Assembly: GCA_946902875.1 (NCBI GenBank)
Contig: OX336336.1
Span: 25,499,558 to 25,563,557, forward strand
DNA from: Nematopogon swammerdamellus
Taxonomy: Eukaryota > Arthropoda > Insecta > Lepidoptera > Adelidae
Direction of reading: 5' to 3'
Length of the DNA: 64,000 nucleotides
Below the pieces are notes generated by a model. The model worked only from the letters and a program-made list of their open reading frames with translations, made no database searches and was not told the DNA's origin. Each line of letters opens with the position of its first letter. The stretch's first letter is position 1. Below, piece after piece: positions 6,535 to 63,675 of the stretch. Made by a program: the position numbers and the translations under genes.

Positions 6535-6957
6535 TAGGTTAGATTAGGTTACGTTAGGTTAGGTTAGCTTAGGTTAGGTTAGGTAAGGTTAGGTTTGGTT
6601 AGTTTAGATTAGGTTAGTTTAGGCTAGGTTAGGTTTTTTTAGGTTGTGTAAGTTTGGGTAGTAAGGTTAGATCTAATAAGGTTAGGTTGGGTTGGGTAAG
6701 GTTATGTTAGGTTAGGTTAGGTTACGTTAGGTTAGGTTAGGTTAGGTTAGGTTAGGTAAGGTTAGGTTTGGTTAGTTTAGATTAGGTTAGTTTAGGCTAG
6801 GTTAGGTTTTTTTAGGTTGTGTAAGTTTGGGTAGTAAGGTTAGATCTAATAAGGTTAGGTTGGGTTGGGTAAGGTTATGTTAGGTTAGGTTAGGTTAGGT
6901 TAGGTTAGGTTAGGTTAGGTTAGGTTAGGTTAGGTTAGGTTAGGTTAGGTTAGGTTA
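6535..6957 (+). repeat. Interstitial TTAGG (insect telomere-type) repeat tract
   Basis: About 420 bp dominated by the pentamer TTAGG, degenerate at first and close to perfect at about 6880-6955 (about 15 units). Within it a segment near 6580-6715 recurs near 6755-6890 with the same variant bases, so the tract has grown partly by duplication of a longer block. TTAGG is the ancestral insect telomere unit; here it lies in an intron. Confidence 0.9.
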
Positions 6958-11017: not shown

Positions 11018-11425
11018 CATCTGTCACGTGATCATTAGTTTTGGTCATATCTACAGAACCACTGGACTTAGACCCATCGTGTTGGTACTCAATCTGAACG
11101 TCTCGATGAGATCTATCCATCTGTCACATTAACTATTGTTTTGGTCATAACTCGAGAACCACTGGTGCTAGACCCATCGTGTTGGTACTCAAACTTCAGG
11201 TCTCGGTGAGATCTATCCATCTGTCACATGAACTTTTGTTTTGGTCATAACCCGAGAACCACTGGTGCTAGACCCATCGTGTTGGTACTCAAACTTCAGG
11301 TCTCGGTGAGATCTATCCATCTGTCACATGAACTTTTGTTTTGGTCATAACTCGAGAACCACTGGTGCTAGACCCATCGTGTTGGTACTCAAACTTTAGG
11401 TCTCGGTGAGATCTATCCATCTGTT
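11018..11425. repeat. 100-bp tandem repeat inside the P-like element, four units
   Basis: Units start near 11071, 11171, 11271 and 11371 and contain gacccatcgtgttggtactc and gagaaccactggtgctagac. The same unit is repeated about seven times in hAT element 3 (30405-31130) and four times in P-like copy 2. Confidence 0.85.
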
Positions 11426-12710
11426 GCGCGACCATCTCTCGAGACACATGTTAGTTCTTTAGTTCAACAATAACAATGTAAATGTCAACAATGTAAACAG
11501 TAACAATGTAAATGTCGTAAATTGTGCTTTTAAATTTAATTCAATTGTTCAAAAGTTACCAAATGAAAATTTTAATATAGATACCGATCTATAAATAAAC
11601 AATTAAGTAAATTATTGTTCTGTTTCAAATATATGTTTCTATTACAGACTACACAGCCTTTCATTTGTTATTTTATTAACCCTTATATAACAAATTCACA
11701 CCGTCAAACTGACAGAGAGACGCATGGTACATTTTATAAGGCTCTAGCTGCATGGCTGGTTAGTTTGTTAAAAAAGGCAAAGCCTGGAAAACCTCATTTT
11801 ACCCTAAAAAAATTAAATATCCAGGTGGGTATGGCTGGTTAGTTTGTTAAAAAAGGCAAAGCCTGGAAAACCTTATTTTACCGTAAAAAAATTAAATATC
11901 GAGGTGGGTACTCATAAATTTTTTATGGTAGGGTAGATTTTCGCGAATTTTTCGCGAAGTCATATTGCAATATAATTTGTCATATCGTTGGCTAAGTAAT
12001 TAGCAAATAGTTGTTAATAATATAATAATTTTTTTTTTTGGTTACAAAACTTTTCGACTTTCTAACATTATTTTTTTAATTTTGGAAAATTCCAATAACA
12101 AATACTCCAATAAGATAATACCAATGTACGAGGTCTTACATATCATTGTTTTGGAAATTTGATGTAGATTTATAATAAAGTATCCGAGGTATCTCAGAAC
12201 TTAGAACTATTATCGTGTTTATGCGAAAATCTGCAAATTCGCAAAATTGTGAAAGGGGCGTTGCCTTTGTTCATTTAAGAGAAAGTTATATTATTCCCTT
12301 GATGTAAAGAAGGGTTAAATATTGTTAAATCCGTTTCATCTTTTCATCGCGAATCGACACAATGAGCGACTTATTGTATGAATCCCGTTCAAACGTATGG
12401 AAGACTGGCGTCACGTGGCTACCTACTCGCTCGGCCAATCACGGCGTTCCATGCGCCGCTCCCGCCTCAGACTTCACACCCCTTTGGCGGCTACCTCGGT
12501 TCTCATACAAACGATGCCGTATTTCGTATCCAGGCTTACTGACTCGTGAGGAAATAGGAACGAATTCAGTTTGATATTTTTACTTCGATCGGCGAGATTC
12601 ATGGAGAATGTTTAATATTTTAATTTATTTATTTCTTTCGGGTGAAGGCGCTGTTTTGTGGTAGTGCGGCGCACGAACGCACTTAAGGGCCAGCCGCCAC
12701 TGCTTACAAG

Positions 12711-22690: not shown

Positions 22691-24194
22691 AAATGTGCGC
22701 TCACATTAATCTGCGCTGCACTGTGCGCTCACACACTAATGTGCGCTCACAATAATGTACGCTGCACTGTGCGCTCACACACTAATGTGCGCTCACAATA
22801 ATGTACGCTGCACTGTGCGCTCAAACTAATGTGCGCTCACAATAATGTGCGCTGCACTGTGTGCTCACACTAATGTGCGCTGCACTGTGCGCTCACACTA
22901 ATGTGCGCTCACAATAATGTACGCTGCACTGTGCGCTCAAACTAATGTGCGCTCACAATAATGTGCGCTGCACTGTGTGCTCACACTAATGTGCGCTGCA
23001 CTGTGCGCTCACACTAATGTGCGCTCACAATAATGTGCGCTGCACTGTGCGCTCACACTAATGTGCGCTGCACTGTGTGCTCACACTAATGTGCGCTCAC
23101 AATAATGTGCGCTGCACTGTGTGCTCACACTAATGTGCGCTCACAATAATGTACGCTGCACTGTGCGCTCACACTAAAGTGCGCTCACAATAATATGCGC
23201 TGCACTGTGCGCTCACAATATGTGCGCTCACAATAATGTGCGCTCACACTAATGTGCGCTCACAATAATGTGCGCTGCACTGTGCGCTCACAATATGTGC
23301 GCTCACAATAATGTGCGCTGCACTGTGTGCTCACACTAATGTGCGCTCACAATAATGTGCGCTGCACTGTGCGCTCACACTAATGTGCGCTCACAATAAT
23401 GTGCGCTGCACTGTGCGCTCACACTAATGTGCGCTCACAATAATGTGCGCTGCACTGTGTGCTCACACTAATGTGCGCTCACAATAATGTACGCTGCACT
23501 GTGCGCTCACACTAATGTGCGCTCACAATAATGTGCGCTGCACTGTGTGCTCACATTAATGTGCGCTCACAATAATGTGCGCTGCACTGTGTGCTCACAC
23601 TAATGTGCGCTCACAATAATGTGCGCTGCACTGTGCGCTCACACTAATATGCGCTCACAATATGTGCGCTCACAATAATGTGCGCTGCACTGTGCGCTCA
23701 CACTAATGTGTGCTCACACTAATGTGCGCTCACAATATGTGCGCTGCACTGTGCGCTCACACTAATGTGCGCTCACAATATGTGCGCTCACAATAATGTG
23801 CGCTGCACTGTGCGCTCACACTAATGTGTGCTCACACTAATGTGCGCTGCACTGTGCGCTCACACTAATGTGCGCTCACAATATGTGCACTGCACAGTGC
23901 GCTCACACTAATGTGCGCTCACAATATGTGCGCTCACAATAATGTGCGCTGCACTGTGCGCTCACACTAATGTGCGCTCACAATAATGTGCGCTGCACTG
24001 TGCGCTCACACTAATGTGTGCTCACACTAATGTGTGCTCACACTAATGTGTGCTCACACTAATGTGTGCTCACACTAATGTGCGCTGCACAGTGCGCTCA
24101 CACTAATGTGCGCTCACAATATGTGCGCTCACAATAATGTGCGCTGCACTGTGCGCTCACGCGCTAATGCGCCCTGTTTGTTTGCTGTCGACAG

Positions 24195-27829: not shown

Positions 27830-28650
27830 TTTGTCGCCAGTTTAACAAGGAACATATAACAGCACATCAACAAAAAATATAAAAACTGCCTTCAAAAAAG
27901 TATGAAATAAAAAAAAATCGAACCCTAGAGTTGAAGGCGGTGCGGTGCTAAAGCAAGCAAAAATGATGCATGAAAGAAAGCCTTCTTTAGCACCGCCTTC
28001 AACTCTAGGGTTGGATTTTTTTTTATTTCATACTTTTTTGAAGGCAGTTATTATATATTTTTTAATAGTTTTTTATTTCACAGTTTTTTTTAGTAATCTT
28101 TTGCTATTAATGTACTCGGCGAATTCCGCCTCGCTTTCCAATCCGATCTTGACCAAATTAAAATGGCACCACACGGGAAGCACCAGCTTTCAAATAAAAA
28201 AAGAATTTTCAAAATTGGGTCACCCAGTCGAAAGTTCTGAGGTAACAAACATAAAAAAATAAAAAATACAGTCGAATTGAGAAACTCCTCCTTTTTTTGA
28301 AGTCGTTTAAAAATGGCGACAAATTGGGCCCAACTCAGCATATGCAATAGGAGACAACGACGTTGTCTATTGCGCTGATTTCCGATCTTGACCAAATTAA
28401 AATGGCACCACACGGGAAGCACCAGCTTTCAAATAAAAAAAGAATTTTCAAAATTGGGTCACCCAGTCGAAAGTTCTGAGGTAACAAACATAAAAAAATA
28501 AAAAATACAGTCGAATTGAGAAACTCCTCCTTTTTTTGAAGTCGTTTAAAAATGGCGACAAATTGGGCCCAACTCAGCATATGCAATAGGAGACAACGAC
28601 GTTGTCTATTGCGCTGATTTGCAGTTGGACCCACTTTGCCGAGAAGTAAA
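27830..28650. mobile_element. Dispersed moth repeat with internal 240-bp tandem duplication
   Basis: Inverted segments around 27920-28020 (aaccctagagttgaaggcgg and its complement), then a block at about 28140-28380 repeated at 28381-28622 (ccgatcttgaccaaattaaa ... gttgtctattgcgctgattt). A related single-unit copy lies at 32985-33370. Confidence 0.65.
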
Positions 28651-30342: not shown

Positions 30343-32499
30343 CAGTGGCGGCTTTGACCAATAAATTTTAGTGAGGCGACTAAAAATCCACCTACATAGC
30401 TTAGACCTGAAGTTTGAGTACCAACACGATGGATCTAGCACCAGTGGTTCTCGAGTTATGACCAAAACAAAAGTTCATGTGACAGATGGATAGATCTCAC
30501 CGAGACCTGAAGTTTGATCACCAACACGATGGGTCTAGCACCAGTGGTTCTCGAGTTATGACCAAAACAAAAGTTCATGTGACAGATGGATAGATCTCAC
30601 CGAGACCTGAAGTTTGAGTACCAACACGATGGGTCTAGCACCAGTGGTTCTCGAGTTATGACCAAAACAAAAGTTCACGTGACAGATGGATAGATCTCAC
30701 CGAGACCTGAAGTTTGAGTACCAACACGATGGCTCTAGCACCAGTGGTTCTCGAGTTATGACCAAAACAAAAGTTCATGTGACAGATGGATATATGTCAC
30801 CGAGACCTGAAGTTTGAGTACCAACACGATGGGTCTAGCACCAGTGGTTCTCGAGTTATGACCAAAACAAACGTTCATGTGACAGTAGATGGATAGATCT
30901 CACCGAGACCTGAAGTTTGAGTACCAACACGATGGGTCTAACACCAGTGGTTCTCGAGTTATGACCAAAACAAAAGTTCATGTGACAGATAGATAGATCT
31001 CACCGAGACCTGAAGTTTGAGTACCGACACGATGGGTCTAGCCCCAGTGGTTCTCGAGTTATGACCAAAACAAAAGTTCACGTGACAGATGGATAGATCT
31101 CACCGAGACCTGAAGTTTGAGTACCAACACGTTCGCAGTTCGCGCGCGCCCAGTTGCAGCCGAACTTCGCCGAGCGCGCGCTCCCCTGCCCGCACTACAC
31201 CCCGCAGCGGACTTCATTCGTTCTCGTTCGTACTCGTGTGCCCATAGGGTTATAATTATAAATAATAAAGTAGCGCAGCGACGTAATACAAACTCTTTGA
31301 TATTCCTATGATAGAATTTTGCACATAATTTGAAAAGGTGCCAGGAGAGCAGCCGAGAGAGGCCGTGGGAGCTGTGTGCGCGGGAAGAAATATTAAGTGA
31401 CATGTTATGTTATTTACAGAGACTCTTACGTATCTACCGATTATACCCTAGTACTTCAACATCAATCGGACCACAAAATCTTTACCTTTTTGGTAGGGTT
31501 GGCCGTGGTGGGGAGCTGTGCGCGGGAAAAAATATTGTATGACATGTTATGTTATTTACTGAGACTCTTATCTACCGATTGCACCCTGGTACTTCATGAG
31601 CTTCATGAGCGCTCGCCGCTCGTCTAGGCGAGCGCAGCGACGACGTAATCTTTCTTATGCAGCAGGATTTATTAGCGCCTCAATTGCTACATGCCACGTG
31701 GTACATCTACATGCCACGAATTCAAAGCGATATGAGCCGGATGTGTCCGGCGTCTCACCAACTGTGCACAATTTCATGCAATGTTTTTTCCCGCGCGTGC
31801 GGCTCCTTGTCATAGCTGTGTGCCTGGTACTTTTTCAAATTATGCGCTGTGCTGTATGACATGTTACTGAGACTCTTATCTACCGATTGTACCCTGGTAC
31901 TTCAAGGGAACACAGAGCGCTCGCCGCCCGTCTAGGCGAGCGCAGCGACGACGTAATCGTTCATGCAGCAGGATTTATCAGCGCCTCAATTGCTAGGTAA
32001 ATGCAACGAATTCAAGGTCAAATTTTTGTCTCTATGAGGTGAAGCGATATGAGCCGGATTTGTCCGGCGTCTCACCAACTGTGCACAATGTCATGCAATG
32101 TTTTTTCCCGCGCGTGCGGATCCTTGTCATGGCTGTGTCCCTGGTACTTTTTCAAATTATGCGCTGTGCTGTATGGTGCTGTCGGCATTTGCGCCAACAC
32201 ACGCGCGTGGACAAGTACATGTGTATTGTATACTAACACATCTTTGGCGCAGAGCTGAAGTATTTCGTTCGTCGCCTCTAAGGACCCCTCTCGCACCACC
32301 TCCCCGCGCCGCACCGCCGGCTCGCCTCCGCGCGCCGTGCACCGTTCGCTTTTTTTTTTGTCTATAATGTTCTCTGATCAGTTTGGATGGACTTTTTTTT
32401 TAATTTTCTTTCATGGTATTTTGAAATTTTTTTTTCTTTACCTTCAAGATGATTAAGTGAGGCGGTGCTTCACTTGCTTCACCTGGATAACCGCCACTG
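30343..32499. mobile_element. hAT element 3 (2.16 kb)
   Basis: Inverted ends CAGTGGCGGCTTT... and ...ATAACCGCCACTG, with perfect 8-bp duplication CTTTGTAG (30335-30342 and 32500-32507). Contains the 100-bp array (30405-31130) and a duplicated block of about 310 bp (about 31540-31850 and 31856-32170, both with gcgagcgcagcgacgacgta). No transposase is recognised. Confidence 0.88.
30405..31130. repeat. 100-bp tandem repeat inside hAT element 3, about seven units
   Basis: Unit boundaries near 30405, 30503, 30603, 30703, 30803, 30905, 31005 and 31105, each with gtaccaacacgatgggtcta and gtggttctcgagttatgacc. It is the reverse complement of the array in the P-like element at 11018. Confidence 0.88.
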
Positions 32500-32777: not shown

Positions 32778-32923
32778 ATCCATGGGATGGTGCGCGTGGT
32801 GATGAAGCCGCTGATCCGTAACATGCCGCTGGTGGGCGGGCTGCAGGTGTTCTTCCTCAACAACCCGGACATCGACTTCAACCTGGTGGGCGTGGCGGAC
32901 GTACTCGACATGCCCGGCCTCAG
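32778..32923 (+). CDS. Esyt2: Esyt2-like exon 7 (SMP domain)
   Basis: 146 nt, acceptor gtacggcag| and donor CTCAG|gtatag, phase 0 to 2. It reads IHGMVRVVMKPLIRNMPLVG then GLQVFFLNNPDIDF and NLVGVADVLDMPGL. The PLxxxMPLVGGLQ.FFLNNP motif is the family's most conserved SMP segment. The acceptor lies only about 11 nt downstream of a LINE poly-A tail, so there is almost no native polypyrimidine tract. The AG at the end combines with the first base of whichever exon 8 copy is used. Confidence 0.93.
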
Positions 32924-33834: not shown

Positions 33835-34269
33835 TGGTGCCCAGCCTCTTTTGGGCCATTCTTTGCACTGACACATCAAGAAGGTCCGTTGTTCGTTGGC
33901 GCCCGGGTAGTGTTACTCCAGCTACTCGAGCTCTTTCATGAAGTAGAGCCCTCTTCGCGGTCGCTTCCACACTCCATGGGCATTTCCCACATCGATAGCC
34001 CTCTATGCGGAACTCGCGGAGGACGAAACAGCCGCTCGCGTGCTTCTAGAGTGCCCGGTGGTGGCGGCAGTACGACTGCAGTTTCTTGGGAATGTGGGAC
34101 CTACCCACGGAGTATGGAAGCGGCCGAAAAGGGTGCTCCGCTTCATGAAAGAGCTCGGGTGGACGGAGTAACACCACCAACGTACAACAGACCATCTTGA
34201 GGTCTCAGAACAGAGAATGCCTACGAGTATGTATGAGTATTAATTAACAATGTCAGATTAAAAAAAAAT
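33835..34269 (+). pseudogene. R1/Jockey-like LINE ORF2 C terminus and tail
   Basis: In one frame, ETAARVLLECPVVAAVRLQF followed by LGNVGPTHGVWKRPKR and an in-frame TAA after KELGWTE: the end of a non-LTR ORF2. A poly-A tail ends at 34269, 38 nt before the first exon 8 copy. Confidence 0.75.
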
Positions 34270-34307
34270 GGGCGTGTTTCAATAAAGTGTTATGTGCACG
34301 TGCACAG

Positions 34308-34428
34308 TGACATCCTGCGTCGCTGCATCGTGGAGCAGGTGGCGCGCATGATGGTGCTGCCCAACAAGCTGCCCATCAAGCTCAGCGACGAGGTCCCCAC
34401 GCAGGACCTGCGCATGCCGGAACCTGAG
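34308..34428 (+). CDS. Esyt2: Esyt2-like exon 8, first copy (end of SMP)
   Basis: 121 nt, acceptor gtgcacgtgcacag| and donor GAG|gtgagc, phase 2 to 0. AG from exon 7 plus T gives Ser, then DILRRCIVEQVARMMVLPNK and LPIKLSDEVPTQDLRMPEPE. This is the last SMP helix and the linker to C2A, with the family phrase MVLPNKLPI. It continues correctly into exon 9 (GVLRIH). First and last copies end GAACCTGAG, whereas internal copies end GAGCCCGAG. Which copy is used in mRNA cannot be told from DNA. Confidence 0.92.
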
Positions 34429-36143
34429 GTGAGCTCTCCCTGAGTCTATGTGCACGTGCACAGTGACATCCTGCGTCGCTGCATCGTGGAGCAGGTGGCG
34501 CGCATGATGGTGCTGCCCAACAAGCTGCCCATCAAGCTCAGCGACGAGGTCCCCACGCAGGACCTGCGCATGCCGGAGCCCGAGGTGAGCTCTCCCTGAG
34601 TCTATGTGCACGTGCACAGTGACATCCTGCGTCGCTGCATCGTGGAGCAGGTGGCGCGCATGATGGTCCTGCCCAACAAGCTGCCCATCAAGCTCAGCGA
34701 CGAGGTCCCCACGCAGGACCTGCGCATGCCGGAGCCCGAGGTGAGCTCTCCCTGAGTCTATGTGCACGTGCACAGTGACATCCTGCGTCGCTGCATCGTG
34801 GAGCAGGTGGCGCGCATGATGGTCCTGCCCAACAAGCTGCCCATCAAGCTCAGCGACGAGGTCCCCACGCAGGACCTGCGCATGCCGGAGCCCGAGGTGA
34901 GCTCTCCCTGAGTCTATGTGCACGTGCACAGGGACATCCTGCGTCGCTGCATCGTGGAGCAGGTGGCGCGCATGATGGTGCTGCCCATCAAGCTCAGCGA
35001 CGAGGTCCTCACGCAGGACCTGCGCATGCCGGAGCCCGAGGTGAGCTCTCCCTGAGTCTATGTGCACGTGCACAGTGACATCCTGCGTCGCTGCATCGTG
35101 GAGCAGGTGGCGCGCATGATGGTCCTGCCCAACAAGCTGCCCATCAAGCTCAGCGACGAGGTCCCCACGCAGGACCTGCGCATGCCGGAGCCCGAGGTGA
35201 GCTCTCCCTGAGTCTATGTGCACGTGCACAGTGACATCCTGCGTCGCTGCATCGTGGAGCAGGTGGCGCGCATGATGGTCCTGCCCAACAAGCTGCCCAT
35301 CAAGCTCAGCGACGAGGTCCCCACGCAGGACCTGCGCATGCCGGAGCCCGAGGTGAGCTCTCCCTGAGTCTATGTGCACGTGCACAGTGACATCCTGCGT
35401 CGCTGCATCGTGGAGCAGGTGGCGCGCATGATGGTCCTGCCCAACAAGCTGCCCATCAAGCTCAGCGACGAGGTCCCCACGCAGGACCTGCGCATGCCGG
35501 AGCCCGAGGTGAGCTCTCCCTGAGTCTATGTGCACGTGCACAGGGACATCCTGCGTCGCTGCATCGTGGAGCAGGTGGCGCGCATGATGGTGCTGCCCAT
35601 CAAGCTCAGCGACGAGGTCCTCACGCAGGACCTGCGCATGCCGGAGCCCGAGGTGAGCTCTCCCTGAGTCTATGTGCACGTGCACAGTGACATCCTGCGT
35701 CGCTGCATCGTGGAGCAGGTGGCGCGCATGATGGTGCTGCCCATCAAGCTCAGCGACGAGGTCCTCACGCAGGACCTGCGCATGCCGGAGCCCGAGGTGA
35801 GCTCTCCCTGAGTCTATGTGCACGTGCACAGTGACATCCTGCGTCGCTGCATCGTGGAGCAGGTGGCGCGCATGATGGTGCTGCCCAACAAGCTGCCCAT
35901 CAAGCTCAGCGACGAGGTCCCCACGCAGGACCTGCGCTTGCCGGAGCCCGAGGTGAGCTCTCCCTGAGTCTATGTGCACGTGCACAGTGACATCCTGCGT
36001 CGCTGCATCGTGGAGCAGGTGGCGCGCATGATGGTGCTGCCCAACAAGCTGCCCATCAAGCTCAGCGACGAGGTCCCCACGCAGGACCTGCGCATGCCGG
36101 AGCCCGAGGTGAGCTCTCCCTGAGTCTATGTGCACGTGCACAG

Positions 36144-36264
36144 TGACATCCTGCGTCGCTGCATCGTGGAGCAGGTGGCGCGCATGATGGTGCTGCCCAA
36201 CAAGCTACCCATCAAGCTCAGCGACGAGGTCCCCACGCAGGACCTGCGCATGCCGGAGCCCGAG
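36144..36264 (+). pseudogene. Esyt2: Esyt2-like exon 8, copy 13 with lost donor
   Basis: Coding part intact, but the donor reads GAG|atgagc: GT has become AT at 36265. If the acceptor were used, the exon would read on into the spacer, so this copy should be skipped or cause retention. Confidence 0.85.
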
Positions 36265-37703
36265 ATGAGCTCTCCCTGAGTCTATGTGCACGTGCACAGT
36301 GACATCCTACGTCGCTGCATCGTGGAGCAGGTGGCGCGCATGATGGTGCTGCCCAACAAGCTACCCATCAAGCTCAGTGACGAGGTCCCCACGCAGGACC
36401 TGCGCATGCCGGAGCCCGAGGTGAGCTCTCCCTGAGTCTATGTGCACGTGCACAGTGACATCCTACGTCGCTGCATCGTGGAGCAGGTGGCGCGCATGAT
36501 GGTGCTGCCCAACAAGCTACCCATCAAGCTCAGCGACGAGGTCCCCACGCAGGACCTGCGCATGCCGGAGCCCGAGGTGAGCTCTCCCTGAGTCTATGTG
36601 CACGTGCACAGTGACATCCTACGTCGCTGCATCGTGGAGCAGGTGGCGCGCATGATGGTGCTGCCCAACAAGCTACCCATCAAGCTCAGCGACGAGGTCC
36701 CCACGCAGGACCTGCGCATGCCGGAGCCCGAGGTGAGCTCTCCCTGAGTCTATGTGCACGTGCACAGTGACATCCTGCGTCGCTGCATCGTGGAGCAGGT
36801 GGCGCGCATGATGGTGCTGCCCAACAAGCTACCCATCAAGCTCAGCGACGAGGTCCCCACGCAGGACCTGCGCATGCCGGAGCCCGAGGTGAGCTCTCCC
36901 TGAGTCTATGTGCACGTGCACAGTGACATCCTACGTCGCTGCATCGTGGAGCAGGTGGCGCGCATGATGGTGCTGCCCAACAAGCTACCCATCAAGCTCA
37001 GCGACGAGGTCCCCACGCAGGACCTGCGCATGCCGGAGCCCGAGGTGAGCTCTCCCTGAGTCTATGTGCACGTGCACAGTGACATCCTACGTCGCTGCAT
37101 CGTGGAGCAGGTGGCGCGCATGATGGTGCTGCCCAACAAGCTACCCATCAAGCTCAGCGACGAGGTCCCCACGCAGGACCTGCGCATGCCGGAGCCCGAG
37201 GTGAGCTCTCCCTGAGTCTATGTGCACGTGCACAGTGACATTCTGCGTCGCTGCATCGTGGAGCAGGTGGCGCGCATGATGGTGCTGCCCAACAAGCTAC
37301 CCATCAAGCTCAGCGACGAGGTCCCCACGCAGGACCTGCGCATGCCGGAGCCCGAGGTGAGCTCTCCCTGAGTCTATGTGCACGTGCACAGCGACATCCT
37401 GCGTCGCTGCATCGTGGAGCAGGTGGCGCGCATGATGGTGCTGCCCAACAAGCTGCCCATCAAGCTCAGCGACGAGGTCCCCACGCAGGATCTGCGCATG
37501 CCGGAGCCCGAGGTGAGCTCTCCCTGAGTCTATGTGCACGTGCACAGTGACATCCTGCGTCGCTGCATCGTGGAGCAGGTGGCGCGCATGATGGTGCTGC
37601 CCAACAAGCTGCCCATCAAGCTCAGCGACGAGGTCCCCACGCAGGATCTGCGCATGCCGGAGCCCGAGGTGAGCTCTCCCTGAGTAAATGTGCACGTGCA
37701 CAG

Positions 37704-37824
37704 TGACATCCTGCGTCGCTGCATCGTGGAGCAGGTGGCGCGCATGATGGTGCTGCCCAACAAGCTACCCATCAAGCTCAGCGACGAGGTCCCCACGCAG
37801 GACCTGCGCATGCCGGAACCTGAG
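37704..37824 (+). CDS. Esyt2: Esyt2-like exon 8, last copy (copy 23)
   Basis: Same 121-nt frame as copy 1 and the same GAACCTGAG ending. It is the copy nearest exon 9, with a donor facing a normal-length intron (530 nt), so it has the least sterically constrained downstream intron. The spacer before it differs slightly (gagtaaatg). Confidence 0.9.
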
Positions 37825-37840
37825 GTGAGCTCTCCCTGAG

Positions 37841-38355
37841 TCCACGCTGCTCTTGAAAAATCTGTGCTTAGAATTTTTTGGTTAACGTTAGTTGCGTTTG
37901 GTAGTTAAAAAGAGTTTTCGAAATCAATGATGGAATGGTTAATATTGCTATCAATTTTTGATAAACTGTGGGCGATGTTATTATGTGGATAGTCACTAAA
38001 ACACTTAAAATAATAATATTTATGAAAAAAAATAATACCCTGCGAAGTTTCGTGGTGGTTCTTCTTCGGTTCGGTGTAATCGAACTGGATAGAACAAAAT
38101 TGTGACTAAGTCGAGTGTAGCCTTTCTGCCTTCAGAATGCTCAATAAACAAATTGACAATCAAATAAGCCGTTACGGCGAAGGAAAAATCTTTGAAAGCC
38201 AAAAATGCCTCAACTTTAAGGGACTCACTTGCAGGTGCAAGGAATTCTGACATTGTTATCGGTCACCGACGTAAACTCCGGTTACGTAGGCGGCCAAAGG
38301 GTTTAGGAATGTGTCACAGATTGGTGTAACATTTTGGCACGTTTTTTGTTCACAG
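37841..38355. other. Intron 8, partly unexplained
   Basis: Contains an A-rich stretch (38020-38035) followed by about 200 bp (gaagtttcgtggtggttctt ...) that looks like a fragment of a retroelement; no clear motif. Confidence 0.4.
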
Positions 38356-38419
38356 GGAGTCCTGAGGATACATCTCATTGAAGCCAAGAATCTCATGAAG
38401 AAAGACATTGGAATGTTAG
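38356..38419 (+). CDS. Esyt2: Esyt2-like exon 9 (start of C2A)
   Basis: 64 nt, acceptor ttgttcacag| and donor TTAG|gtgtgt, phase 0 to 1. It encodes GVLRIHLIEAKNLMKKDIGM then L, the first C2 strand with the loop-1 Asp (KKD). GVLRIHLIEAKNL is a textbook E-Syt C2A opening. Lower GC than neighbouring exons. The split G|GT makes the Gly at the exon 10 junction. Confidence 0.93.
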
Positions 38420-39565: not shown

Positions 39566-39822
39566 CGTATGTAATTGTATGTAATTGTATGTAATTGTAT
39601 TGTATTCAATTGTATGTAATTGTATGTAATTGTATTGTATTCAATTGTATGTAATTGTATTGTATTCAATTGTGTGTAATTGTATTGTATTCAATTGTAT
39701 GTAATTGTATGTAATTGTATTGTATTCAATTTTATGTAATTGTATGTAATTGTATTGTATTCAATTGTATGTAATTGTATGTGATTGTATTGTATTCAAT
39801 TGTATGTAATTGTATGTAATTG
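39566..39822 (+). repeat. TGTATGTAAT / TGTATTCAAT microsatellite
   Basis: Alternating decamers tgtatgtaat and tgtattcaat for about 255 bp. It stops 8 nt before the exon 10 acceptor, so the last intron bases (tgtatgtaattggcaattag) are repeat-derived. Confidence 0.9.
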
Positions 39823-39830
39823 GCAATTAG

Positions 39831-39937
39831 GTAAAGGTAAATCGGACCCGTACGCAATCATCACGGTCGGCGCGCAGCAGTTCAAGACCAAGCACATCGA
39901 CAACAACGTCAATCCCAAGTTCGACTTCTGGTGCGAG
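39831..39937 (+). CDS. Esyt2: Esyt2-like exon 10 (C2A)
   Basis: 107 nt, acceptor ggcaattag| and donor TGCGAG|gtgcgt, phase 1 to 0. With the split Gly it reads GKGKSDPYAIITVGAQQFKT then KHIDNNVNPKFDFWCE. KSDPY carries a loop-1 calcium Asp; NNxNPKxxFWCE is the strand before the alternative exon. It ends at the exact point where any of the three exon 11 versions can join. Confidence 0.93.
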
Positions 39938-45632: not shown

Positions 45633-45718
45633 GCGCTCATATCGCAGTCGCGCGGACAAACGCTCCATGTCGCGCTCCTAGACAGGGACGATGCGGGCGC
45701 TGACGAGAGCCTGGGCAG
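45633..45718 (+). CDS. Esyt2: Esyt2-like alternative exon 11, version a
   Basis: 86 nt, acceptor gtgcgcgatcag| and strong donor GGCAG|gtgagt, phase 0 to 2. It reads ALISQSRGQTLHVALLDRDD then AGADESLG plus split Arg. It spans two C2A strands and calcium loop 3 (D-R-D-D-A-G-A-D-E). Sixteen residues precede the D-x-D motif, as in other E-Syts. It is one of three interchangeable versions; see 49638 and 52949. A GU-rich tract (gtgcgtgtgtgtgcgggtgg) stands before the acceptor. Confidence 0.82.
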
Positions 45719-49637: not shown

Positions 49638-49732
49638 GCGTTGATAAGTTCGCGGAAGTGCCAAGCGCTGGCGTGCGAACTGTGGGACTGGGACCCGGGC
49701 CTCGGCATTCAGAACGACGACTTCCTCGGCAG
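49638..49732 (+). CDS. Esyt2: Esyt2-like alternative exon 11, version b
   Basis: 95 nt, acceptor tgtgtccaaag| and weak donor GGCAG|gtccgt, phase 0 to 2. It reads ALISSRKCQALACELWDWDP then GLGIQNDDFLG plus split Arg. The shared ALIS start with version a and the 16 residues before D-x-D support this acceptor; a second AG at 49657-49658 would give a shorter in-frame exon. Calcium loop 3 is DWDPGLGIQNDD, about four residues longer than the DxDPDKDD form of human E-Syt2. Confidence 0.8.
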
Positions 49733-49739
49733 GTCCGTT

Positions 49740-50060
49740 TGTTACAACCGTCCCAACGTGTTGGTTACAACTGTCCCAGATGTTACAACCGTCCCAACCT
49801 ATTGGTTAGAGCCATCTCAACCTATTGGTTACTGCCATCTCAACTTGTTGGTCACAACCTGCTCCGACTTGTTGGTTACAACTGTCCCAACATGTTGTTT
49901 AATTGTCCCAACCTGTCGGTTGCAACTGTCCCAACCAGTTGTTCAATGTCCCAAACTGTTGGTTACAACTGTCCCAAACGGTTGGTTACAAATGTTCCAA
50001 CCTGTTGGTTACAACTGTCCCAACCTGTTGTTAAATCCGTCCCAACCTGTCAAACCGACA
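49740..50060 (+). repeat. 22-bp GTTGGTTACAACTGTCCCAACC minisatellite
   Basis: About 14 degenerate units (ttggttacaactgtcccaac) starting 7 nt after the exon 11b donor. Open frames across it are artefacts. Confidence 0.85.
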
Positions 50061-55776: not shown

Positions 55777-58234
55777 CACGAGTCAGTAAGCCTGGATACG
55801 AAATACGGCATCGTTTGTATGAGAACCGAGGTAGCCGCCAAAGGGGTGTGAAGTCTGAGGCGGGAGCGGCGCATGGAACGCCGTGATTGGCCGAGCGAGT
55901 AGGTAGCCAAGTGACGCCAGTCTTCCATACGTTTGAACGGGATTCATACAATAAGTCGCTCATTGTGTCGATTCGCGATGAAAAGATGAAACGGATTTAA
56001 CAATATTTAACCCTTCTTTACATCAAGGGAATAATATAACTTTCTCTTAAATGAACAAAGGCAACGCCCCTTTCACAATTTTGCGAATTTGCAGATTTTC
56101 GCATAAACACGATAATAGTTCTAAGTTCTGAGATACCTCGGATACTTTATTATAAATCTACATCAAATTTCCAAAACAATGATATGTAAGACCTCGTACA
56201 TTGGTATTATCTTATTGGAGTATTTGTTATTGGAATTTTCCAAAATTAAAAAAATAATGTTAGAAAGTCGAAAAGTTTTGTAACCAAAAAAAAAAAAAAA
56301 TTATATTATTAACAACTATTTGCTAATTACTTAGCCAACGATATGACAAATTATATTGCAATATGACTTCGCGAAAAATTCGCGAAAATCTACCCTACCA
56401 TAAAAAATTTATGAGTACCCACCTCGATATTTAATTTTTTTACGGTAAAATGAGATTTTCCAGGCTTTGCCTTTTTTAACAAACTAACCAGCCATACCCA
56501 CCTGGATATTTAATTTTTTTAGGGTAAAATGAGGTTTTCCAGGCTTTGCCTTTTTTAACAAACTAACCAGCCATGCAGCTAGAGCCTTATAAAATGTACC
56601 ATGCGTCTCTCTGTCAGTTTCACGGTGTGAATTCGTTATATAAGGGTTAATAAAATAACAAATGAAAGGCTGTGTAGTCTGTAATAGAAACATATATTTG
56701 AAACAGAACAATAATTTACTTAATTATTTATTTATAGATCGGTATCTATATTAAAATTTTCATTTGGTAACTTTTGAACAATTGAATTAAATTTAAAAGC
56801 ACAATTTACGACATTTACATTGTTACTGTTTACATTGTTGACATTTACATTGTTATTCTTGAACTAAAGAACTAAAGAACTAACATGTGTCTCGAGAGAT
56901 GGTCGCGCAACAGATGGATAGATCTCACCGAGACCTAAAGTTTGAGTACCAACACGATGGGTCTAGCACCAGTGGTTCTCGAGTTATGACCAAAACAAAA
57001 GTTCATGTGACAGATGGATAGATCTCACCGAGACCTGAAGTTTGAGTACCAACACGATGGGTCTAGCACCAGTGGTTCTCGAGTTATGACCAAAACAAAA
57101 GTTCATGTGACAGATGGATAGATCTCACCGAGACCTAAAGTTTAAGTACCAACACGATGGATCTAGCACCAGTGGTTCTCGAGTTATGACCAAAACAAAA
57201 GTTCATGTGACAGATGGATAGATCTCATCGAGACGTTCAGATTGAGTACCAACACGATGGGTCTAAGTCCAGTGGTTCTGTAGATATGACCAAAACTAAT
57301 GATCACGTGACAGATGATAATTCCGACCCCTCACTCGCATGATCGCATCGCATTTCGCATTTAGATGCTAGCTAGCTAGCTAGCAGCGGAGCGCAGGCGC
57401 TATATAGCATTTAGCATTTAGCAGTACCACAGATAAATAGCACATACTTCATTGCTTTGTGTGTTCCAAAACAAACGAACCAACAAAGTTTTACGAACGA
57501 AACAGCAATGCTAACTAAAATTAAATGTGATTATTGCTTAGCATTTAGCATTAATTTTTATTCATCAGGGCGCTTAACAGTGCTAAATGCTAACGGGGTA
57601 TTCATTATGAATTAATTTTGTTAATGCTAAGCATAACAAGACTAATTCCCGGTAGACGCATGACCTAAAGAAATTAATTCCTTTAGAGTCGCTCAAAAGT
57701 AAAAACCGGTAGGTACTGGTTGAATGAAAAAAGCGCGATAAACGAATATTGAACGAGGAAACCTGCCGAGGTTGACTAGAAGAAATGTCCTTTGGCAATA
57801 AGGCAGAATGCATGAAATATCTGTATACATTTAACATACATATTTATCAATAAACAAAAAAAATTACAAGAGCTAACTGCATCCAACACGATAGTCGACC
57901 TATGGTGGGTAAGCAGAAAAGAGCTCTCCATACATATTTACGCCGATGTTTGTTACTGAAATTCAAGCGAAAAATGCTATCAAATTGAATGAAAGTACTT
58001 ACTCGTGAAAGGTGACTCCATCTGTGTTCAAGTTTGAATTTTTCGACGACTTTTTGCACCAAAGCACTGCACAATGAGGCATTTTGTGACAGACGCGCAC
58101 GTTCGCTCCGCCTGAGCGGCGGACGGAGACTAAGATCGGTCGCCGGCGCTAGACTGACGCGCTGGCGCGTGTGCGCCGACGCGCGGCTACCCCTGTCCTC
58201 CTATGTATAGCGCCTCCAGGCTTACTGACTCGTG
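55777..58234 (-). mobile_element. P-like (THAP-coding) DNA element, copy 2
   Basis: Same 20-bp ends as copy 1; perfect 8-bp duplication GCCTCGGT (55769-55776 and 58235-58242). 2458 bp, nearly identical to 10104-12548 but inverted, including four 100-bp repeats at about 56920-57310. High identity of two copies suggests recent activity in the lineage. Confidence 0.8.
58003..58082 (-). CDS. THAP zinc-finger first exon, copy 2
   Basis: Same 80-nt frame as 10256-10335 (MPHCAVLWC ... TFH) with the donor at its left end. No second exon identified. Confidence 0.6.
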
Positions 58235-63466: not shown

Positions 63467-63625
63467 AGTGCCCGAACGCAGTCCAAGCCGGACCCGTACC
63501 TGACGCTGTCGCTGGGCCGGAAGACTGAGAACTCCGGCGTGCAGCTGCGCACCGCCAGCCCCGTGTACGAGATCGGACACTCCTTCCTCGTCACCAACCC
63601 CGAGACAGATACTCTGCGGCTCAAG
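63467..63625 (+). CDS. Esyt2: Esyt2-like exon 15 (C2B), last exon in window
   Basis: Fifty-three codons, acceptor attggcgcag| and donor CTCAAG|gtaccc, phase 0 to 0. It reads SARTQSKPDPYLTLSLGRKT, then ENSGVQLRTASPVYEIGHSF and LVTNPETDTLRLK. KPDPY holds the loop-1 calcium Asp of C2B; P-V-Y-E-x-x-H-S-F is the usual strand 4. The coding sequence must continue past 64000. Confidence 0.93.
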
Positions 63626-63675
63626 GTACCCTGTTGATGCTTGTGACGCTTGCAAGTGCTCCAGTAAATTCACAT

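Follow-up and report, generated by a model that had tools for sequence, protein, structure and literature searches.

Twenty-three tandem copies of a single extended synaptotagmin exon in the lepidopteran Nematopogon swammerdamellus

The extended synaptotagmin gene (Esyt2) of Nematopogon swammerdamellus carries, in the position of one coding exon that we call exon G, a head-to-tail array of 23 near-identical exon copies. The array lies in a window of 64,000 nucleotides of assembly GCA_946902875.1 (contig OX336336.1, here contig 4, 29.7 Mb long; positions 25,499,558-25,563,557), and coordinates below are positions in this window unless a contig is named. Arrays of tandem exons are usually seen as a means of diversifying a protein. 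Judged by what they encode, the exon G copies are interchangeable and form no repertoire. The explanation that we consider probable is that a young minisatellite took in exon G of an Esyt2 that is ordinary in other respects, and that its copies are usable, interchangeable and represented once in each working messenger RNA (mRNA). One duplication would have been followed by exchange among the units, and a working mRNA would, after splicing, hold exactly one exon G copy. The anatomy of the array would in this way dictate a one-of-23 splicing choice, yet one that generates no diversity.

Tandem Repeats Finder (TRF) delimits the array at 34291-37842, with a period of 156, 23.0 copies, 97% matches and a score of 6593. 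Copy-by-copy parsing resolves each unit into 17 nt containing the acceptor, exon G itself and 18 nt containing the donor. AG precedes the exon in all 23 copies and GT follows it in 22 of 23, the exception being copy 13, where AT replaces the donor GT at 36265. The first-pass annotation of this DNA had described 23 tandem units, each with an intact coding exon bordered by AG and GT and with one donor lost, a description on which TRF and parsing agree. Exon length is 121 nt in 20 of the 23 copies and 109 nt in three (5, 9 and 10), each of the 22 spacers between copies is exactly 35 nt, and 13 different exon sequences and 14 different units occur among the copies. By eye, no microhomology links the unit junction (GAGTC/TATGTG) to the flanks (AAAGTGT/TATGTG and GAGTC/CACGCTG). 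The elements of the array are as follows.

34291-37842, plus strand: exon G tandem array, 23 units head-to-tail (20 of 156 bp, 3 of 144 bp), from TRF, copy parsing and genome search
34308-34428, plus strand: exon G copy 1, 121 nt, phase 2 to 0, from copy parsing
34429-34463, plus strand: first of 22 spacers, 35 nt, from the copy 1 donor to the copy 2 acceptor, from copy parsing
34932-35040, plus strand: exon G copy 5, 109-nt variant lacking four residues in frame, with P to L and G as first base
35544-35652, plus strand: exon G copy 9, 109 nt, identical in sequence to copy 5
35688-35796, plus strand: exon G copy 10, 109 nt, first base T
36144-36264, plus strand: exon G copy 13, donor GT changed to AT, from copy parsing
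37704-37824, plus strand: exon G copy 23, the last, followed by 531 nt of intron up to exon H

Tandem repeats this similar are notoriously hard to assemble, and the copy number, or the array itself, might be wrong. We regard such an artefact as very unlikely: the 14 distinct units are ordered, with neighbours alike, a 3.5-kb array is placed in a 699 Mb assembly of 39 contigs, and Esyt2 contains two further arrays composed of other units. A search of the assembly (699,432,277 bp, 39 contigs) with the exon G unit, in which one candidate region was scored and counts are lower bounds, returned 23 matches, every one inside the array. Directly upstream of the array, 33840-34200 looks by eye like the 3' end of a reverse-transcriptase frame from a retrotransposon, with a run of A behind it.

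The first-pass annotation had also assigned the gene and the place of the exon at the end of the SMP domain, and both assignments agree with Pfam matches and exon order. The composite protein matches SMP_LBD (6.1e-42) and C2 (4.6e-25), the SMP domain is followed by C2 domains, and relatives are matched along the gene, identifying the gene as an extended synaptotagmin. In tblastn searches its exons are collinear with proteins P0004 and P0056, and the 13 inner exons checked all have AG and GT borders; the match to the first exon, near 853, is weak (E 1.1). By genome search the gene extends some 15.3 kb beyond the window. This search of the genome, made with a relative's protein, gave 59 matches, all to this gene on contig 4, and no second Esyt locus was seen among the 56 of 83 candidates scored. 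In a tree of 31 proteins the window Esyt2 is sister to 20 rows, 17 of them named Lepidoptera and 3 unnamed transcripts, with support of 100/99 and a caddisfly outside; the most likely placement is that of an early-branching lepidopteran.

853-63628, plus strand: part of Esyt2 inside the window, from tblastn of P0004 and P0056 and genome search
32778-32923, plus strand: exon F, the upstream neighbour, last letters ...CTCAG, the AG being the first two bases of a Ser codon that exon G completes (phase 2)
38356-38419, plus strand: exon H, the downstream neighbour, starting GGAGTC, phase 0 (GVLRIHLIEAK...)
39831-39937, plus strand: exon I (C2A), used for the frame test
63467-63628, plus strand: C2B exon of Esyt2

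Exon G corresponds to residues 224-264 of the composite protein. These residues straddle the Pfam borders, the SMP_LBD match spanning 71-248 and C2 beginning at 265, so that exon G encodes the end of the SMP domain (its last 25 residues) and the linker to C2A. At the exon F-to-H position that holds the array here, the relatives listed have one 41-residue stretch. We checked 240 relatives (the best 120 of 506 and the best 120 of 191). Exactly one VLPN[KR] motif is present in 231 of those listed and none in 9, which are fragments, in keeping with the previous statement that the exon is normally single. Adding 79 more among the matches listed, 309 of 319 have one motif and 10 have none, and no multi-copy relative is among them. 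Eighty-five of the 231 one-motif relatives stop short of the next exon, and in 83 of the 85 PEPE (or nearly so) is followed by V, as if a GT donor had been read through; the 3' border of exon G is therefore widely conserved. On the 5' side, 14 one-motif relatives do not extend past exon G, and several of these are merely short. No protein near-identical to the window Esyt2 is among the matches listed, the best identities being 86% or less.

The reading frame constrains how these copies can be used. Exon F leaves the AG of a serine codon, exon G provides the last base and 40 codons, and exon H opens a new codon; exon G has a length of 3n+1 because of the split serine codon upstream and the fresh codon in exon H. 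The earlier annotation missed this phase asymmetry, as well as two more exon arrays in Esyt2. Inclusion of a single copy keeps the frame open for all 23 copies, and skipping of exon G closes it with a stop. In the frame test, multiple inclusion closed the frame in 253 of 253 pairs, 1771 of 1771 triples and 8855 of 8855 quadruples, a TGA being formed right at the junction in 221 of the 253 pairs, and retention of the spacer between adjacent copies led to a stop after 12 nt in 22 of 22 cases. According to the excerpt of PMC2767349, Drosophila splicing needs an intron of at least about 45 nt, and according to excerpts of PMC5740500 and PMC7969005 the donor must lie about 50 nt or more from the branch point. 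The 35-nt spacer is under the published fly minimum, and adjacent copies should therefore not be joined; a spacer this short would prevent two neighbours from being spliced together. Skipping, spacer retention or the joining of non-neighbours would each produce a premature stop, and the cell would discard the resulting mRNAs. Between copies two apart lie 191 nt, or 179 nt where the copy in the middle is a short one.

In the excerpt of PMC5740500, branch-point proximity and frame shift with nonsense-mediated decay are among the rules behind mutually exclusive exons. On paper, the exon G array satisfies both the spacing and the frame rule, and it shows one of the marks of a cluster of mutually exclusive exons, in that joint inclusion or skipping breaks the frame or spacing blocks the joining. 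The copies had been called splice-competent, which holds for them one by one; it does not carry over to several at once, adjacent copies being 35 nt apart and all tested multiple inclusions breaking the frame. The acceptors of the array have pyrimidine contents of 0.37-0.47 against 0.26-0.89 for 13 others and are not unusual in Esyt2. From these constraints we infer that each working mRNA would carry one copy and that faulty mRNAs would be discarded, and the likely cost of the array would be wasted, mis-spliced transcripts.

The differences among copies bear on how many of them have been in use. Counted against a full-length reference copy, the copies show 12 substitution events, 9 silent and 3 replacing, and one 12-nt in-frame deletion. 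The neutral expectation across eight mutation models is 23-38% silent, against which 9:3 gives P values of 2e-4 to 1.1e-2; among full-length copies alone, a subset picked after the fact, 9 of 10 changes are silent (P 2e-5 to 1e-3). This skew suggests that more than one copy was used while under selection. The peptide is identical in 19 of the 23 copies, one having M to L and three having the four-residue deletion and P to L, and the array is accordingly not one whose copies encode different peptides to diversify isoforms. Mean pairwise divergence is 2.2%, and neighbouring copies are alike: adjacent copies show 34 differences, and shuffling their order raises the mean to 57.8 (P 5e-5). Near-identical head-to-tail units of tens to a few hundred bp, alike between neighbours, are one mark of a minisatellite, or variable number tandem repeat (VNTR), and are seen in this array. 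Three views of the first-pass annotation are supported: that the copies are near-identical with mostly silent changes, that the protein is not diversified, and that a coding exon was probably captured in a young minisatellite.

The same differences can be read in another way, in which one favoured copy does all the work, for instance copy 23, whose donor is nearest to exon H, or copy 1, which has its own upstream intron, and the others are drifting decoys. The terminal copies would be preferred by proximity; both, copies 1 and 23, are intact, and they alone share two silent changes, GAA CCT at the 3' end, found in no other copy. The damaged copies (5, 9 and 10, which are short, 11 with M to L, and 13 with its donor lost) all lie in positions 5-13, leaving positions 1-4 and 14-23 free of damage. 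Decoys, however, should drift neutrally, yet the changes are 9 silent to 3 replacing, and donors remain intact in 22 of 23 copies and acceptors in 23 of 23; moreover, the clustering of damage was noticed post hoc, and the three short copies are probably of common descent. We therefore consider a single working copy doubtful, though deserving of weight, and prefer capture of exon G with several usable copies.

A second alternative concerns the RNA. Every exon G acceptor contains a 14-nt palindrome, the first of which is listed here.

34293-34306, no strand assigned: palindrome TGTGCACGTGCACA, 14 bp and perfect, starting 2 nt inside the unit; each of the 23 acceptors has one, and this is the first

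The 27-nt duplex of an acceptor with itself is predicted at -39.1 kcal/mol, where pieces of the unit of the same length have a median of -19.5. In local folds of three to four copies the acceptors of different copies are paired with probabilities up to 1.0, some acceptors being left without a strong partner. The array might thus be a regulated device, in which acceptors pair mutually and few stay open, copy number sets the unproductive fraction, and array length tunes Esyt2 output. The palindrome at each acceptor, the stability of the duplex and the pairing probabilities would fit such a device. Against it, the palindrome may be merely the captured acceptor, the local folds leave the unpartnered acceptors noted above, and no relative with an exon G array is known. 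A docking site for the 35-nt spacer was likewise not found in the two flanking introns, scanned in steps of 10 nt with 20 mononucleotide shuffles each, where the best values were -26.0 against a shuffled mean of -25.2 and -21.7 against -25.0; these introns showed no outside site pairing with each copy in the manner of Dscam docking and selector sequences. The palindrome could mask acceptors in these models, but it might have come along incidentally with the captured sequence, and we judge a regulated device improbable. Its fullest form, an isocoding exon array acting as a splicing throttle set by its length, with exclusivity imposed by the frame, by the length of the spacers and by self-complementary acceptors that mask one another, we rate a little lower still. 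If it were true, copy number, free to shift by unequal exchange, would set the amount of productive Esyt2 mRNA, and the three exon arrays of Esyt2 would be related devices and not accidents. Nothing shows the exon G array to be adaptive.

Capture by a minisatellite, our preferred explanation, has parallels in the same gene and genome. A genome search with a relative's protein revealed two more exon arrays in Esyt2, both beyond the window, and a further array was found at a C2 exon elsewhere.

Contig 4, 25,565,634-25,568,464: array 2, C2B exon, 177 bp x 16.0, 97%, 2.1 kb past the window end
Contig 4, 25,575,632-25,578,239: array 3, 3' part of the C2C exon with its donor, 154 bp x 16.9, 97%
Contig 32, 2542700-2544200, minus strand: array at a synaptotagmin-like C2 exon, units of about 150 bp, 80% alike, at least 4.8 copies, cut off where the examined stretch ends

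Later copies in arrays 2 and 3 lack the exon's own acceptor. Array 2, which has this acceptor in its first copy only and a donor GT in 16 of 16, reads through from the acceptor to the 16th donor for 2808 nt in frame and with no stop, and extra copies could therefore enter the protein. A 15-copy query of array 2 found no repeated form in other proteins among the best 120 of 139 matches (top 55 bits, 6-14% query cover). In array 3 any of the 16 later donors results in a stop, and only the first donor keeps the frame. With the last copy of each excluded, array 2 has 9 silent and 7 replacing changes (P 0.009-0.12), and array 3 has 8 and 10, near neutral (P 0.05-0.30). Numbering the exon G array as array 1, the order 1 > 2 > 3 tracks the coding capacity of later copies.

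The wider genome is rich in comparable arrays. Seven of 18 random 10-kb stretches contain arrays with a period of at least 60 and at least 3 copies, covering 7962 of 180,000 bases (about 4%). Among 20 of the 46 other PF00168 matches (mostly top-scoring, some sharing a gene, 1.5 kb each), one C2 exon overlaps an array, that of the synaptotagmin-like gene on contig 32, which takes in the 3' end of the exon, its donor and downstream intron and is older than the Esyt2 arrays. No tandem runs were seen among 47 PF00168 matches of the genome's own, a weak negative since copies of arrays 2 and 3 were also missed. Within the window, Esyt2 exons are not unusually near minisatellites: 3 of 13 lie within 50 bp of one, and circular shifting predicts 3.11 (P 0.63; the exon borders are approximate). 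The exon G array may be one instance of a wider tendency to capture exons in a repeat-rich genome.

Several points weigh against the explanation that we prefer. Non-adjacent copies, at least 179 nt apart, could be joined, and a large unproductive fraction is then expected unless this is suppressed; no suppressor of such joining was shown. The argument from the 35-nt spacer borrows fly and vertebrate limits, from which moths may differ, and the use of any exon G copy in mRNA is itself a deduction from genomic DNA. The silent excess comes from 12 events, each taken to have a single origin; a Fisher test finds no significant difference between array 1 and array 3 (P 0.14), nor between array 1 and the two others pooled (P 0.18). 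Nor is exon capture shown to exceed the background, assumed at 4.4-6.5%: 3 of 21 Esyt2 exons (two of them weak matches), or 4 of 41 with the C2 sample, give P 0.06-0.28, and with array 1 excluded 3 of 40 exons give P 0.26-0.49. The plainest account is therefore that minisatellites catch exons at about the rate of any sequence.

Other repeats were noted in the window. Minisatellites at 22692-24160 and 39567-39822 stop short of exons C and I by 35 bp and 9 bp, respectively, and one at 49737-50050 begins directly after exon J'. A 239-bp segment at 28142-28620 is present in two tandem copies with 100% matches by TRF, a very recent duplication. In the presumed first intron, 6535-6957 is an array of TAGGT/TTAGG-like words with a higher period of 173 bp (TRF), which we take to resemble the insect telomere repeat. 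The stretches 11018-11910 and 56416-57316 look, from the TRF consensus, like inverted copies of one repeat with internal tandem units of 100 bp and 79 bp, and 30403-31131 is a third 100-bp array. A scan for viral contigs gave 38 stretches by protein matching, none confirmed, and none by exact DNA matching.

A large exon array almost devoid of diversity allows the rules of a one-of-many choice to be studied without the confounding effect of different products, and its silent variants label groups of copies for counting in complementary DNA. It also offers a natural experiment on the survival of a gene whose coding exons are engulfed by a minisatellite.

Clusters of mutually exclusive exons usually contain few, diverged copies that alter the protein, whereas the exon G array has 23 copies about 2% apart, 19 of 23 encoding the same peptide. 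With the clusters described in the excerpt of PMC5740500, which arise by tandem exon duplication, it has in common tandem exon copies of a length not divisible by three, a donor too close to the next branch point and a stop upon combined inclusion. The Dscam exon 6 array comprises, in the excerpt of PMC6071210, 48 variable exons with a docking site and selector sequences; like it, the exon G array consists of dozens of tandem copies with complementary RNA sequence at each, but it lacks diversity, has 35-nt spacers and self-complementary acceptors, and shows no docking site in the flanking introns. No such array is described in the titles and opening lines of abstracts of open-licence literature on tandem, identical or duplicated exons. 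For arthropod Esyt2 itself, the excerpt of PMC2823689 reports mutually exclusive exons in the first C2 domain, a diverged pair in C2A of the same gene, and mentions no SMP array. Both alternative C2A exons are present here, J at 45633-45718 and J' at 49638-49732, the latter with matches of up to 84% to isoform exons from other Lepidoptera.

In coding VNTRs such as the kringle IV-2 exon repeat of LPA, the unit is phase-symmetric and every copy is translated into the protein. The exon G array resembles these in being a tandem series of exon-containing units, but only one of its copies can enter the protein. Array 2, with its 177-bp unit and open read-through, stands nearer to coding VNTRs of the LPA type than the exon G array does.

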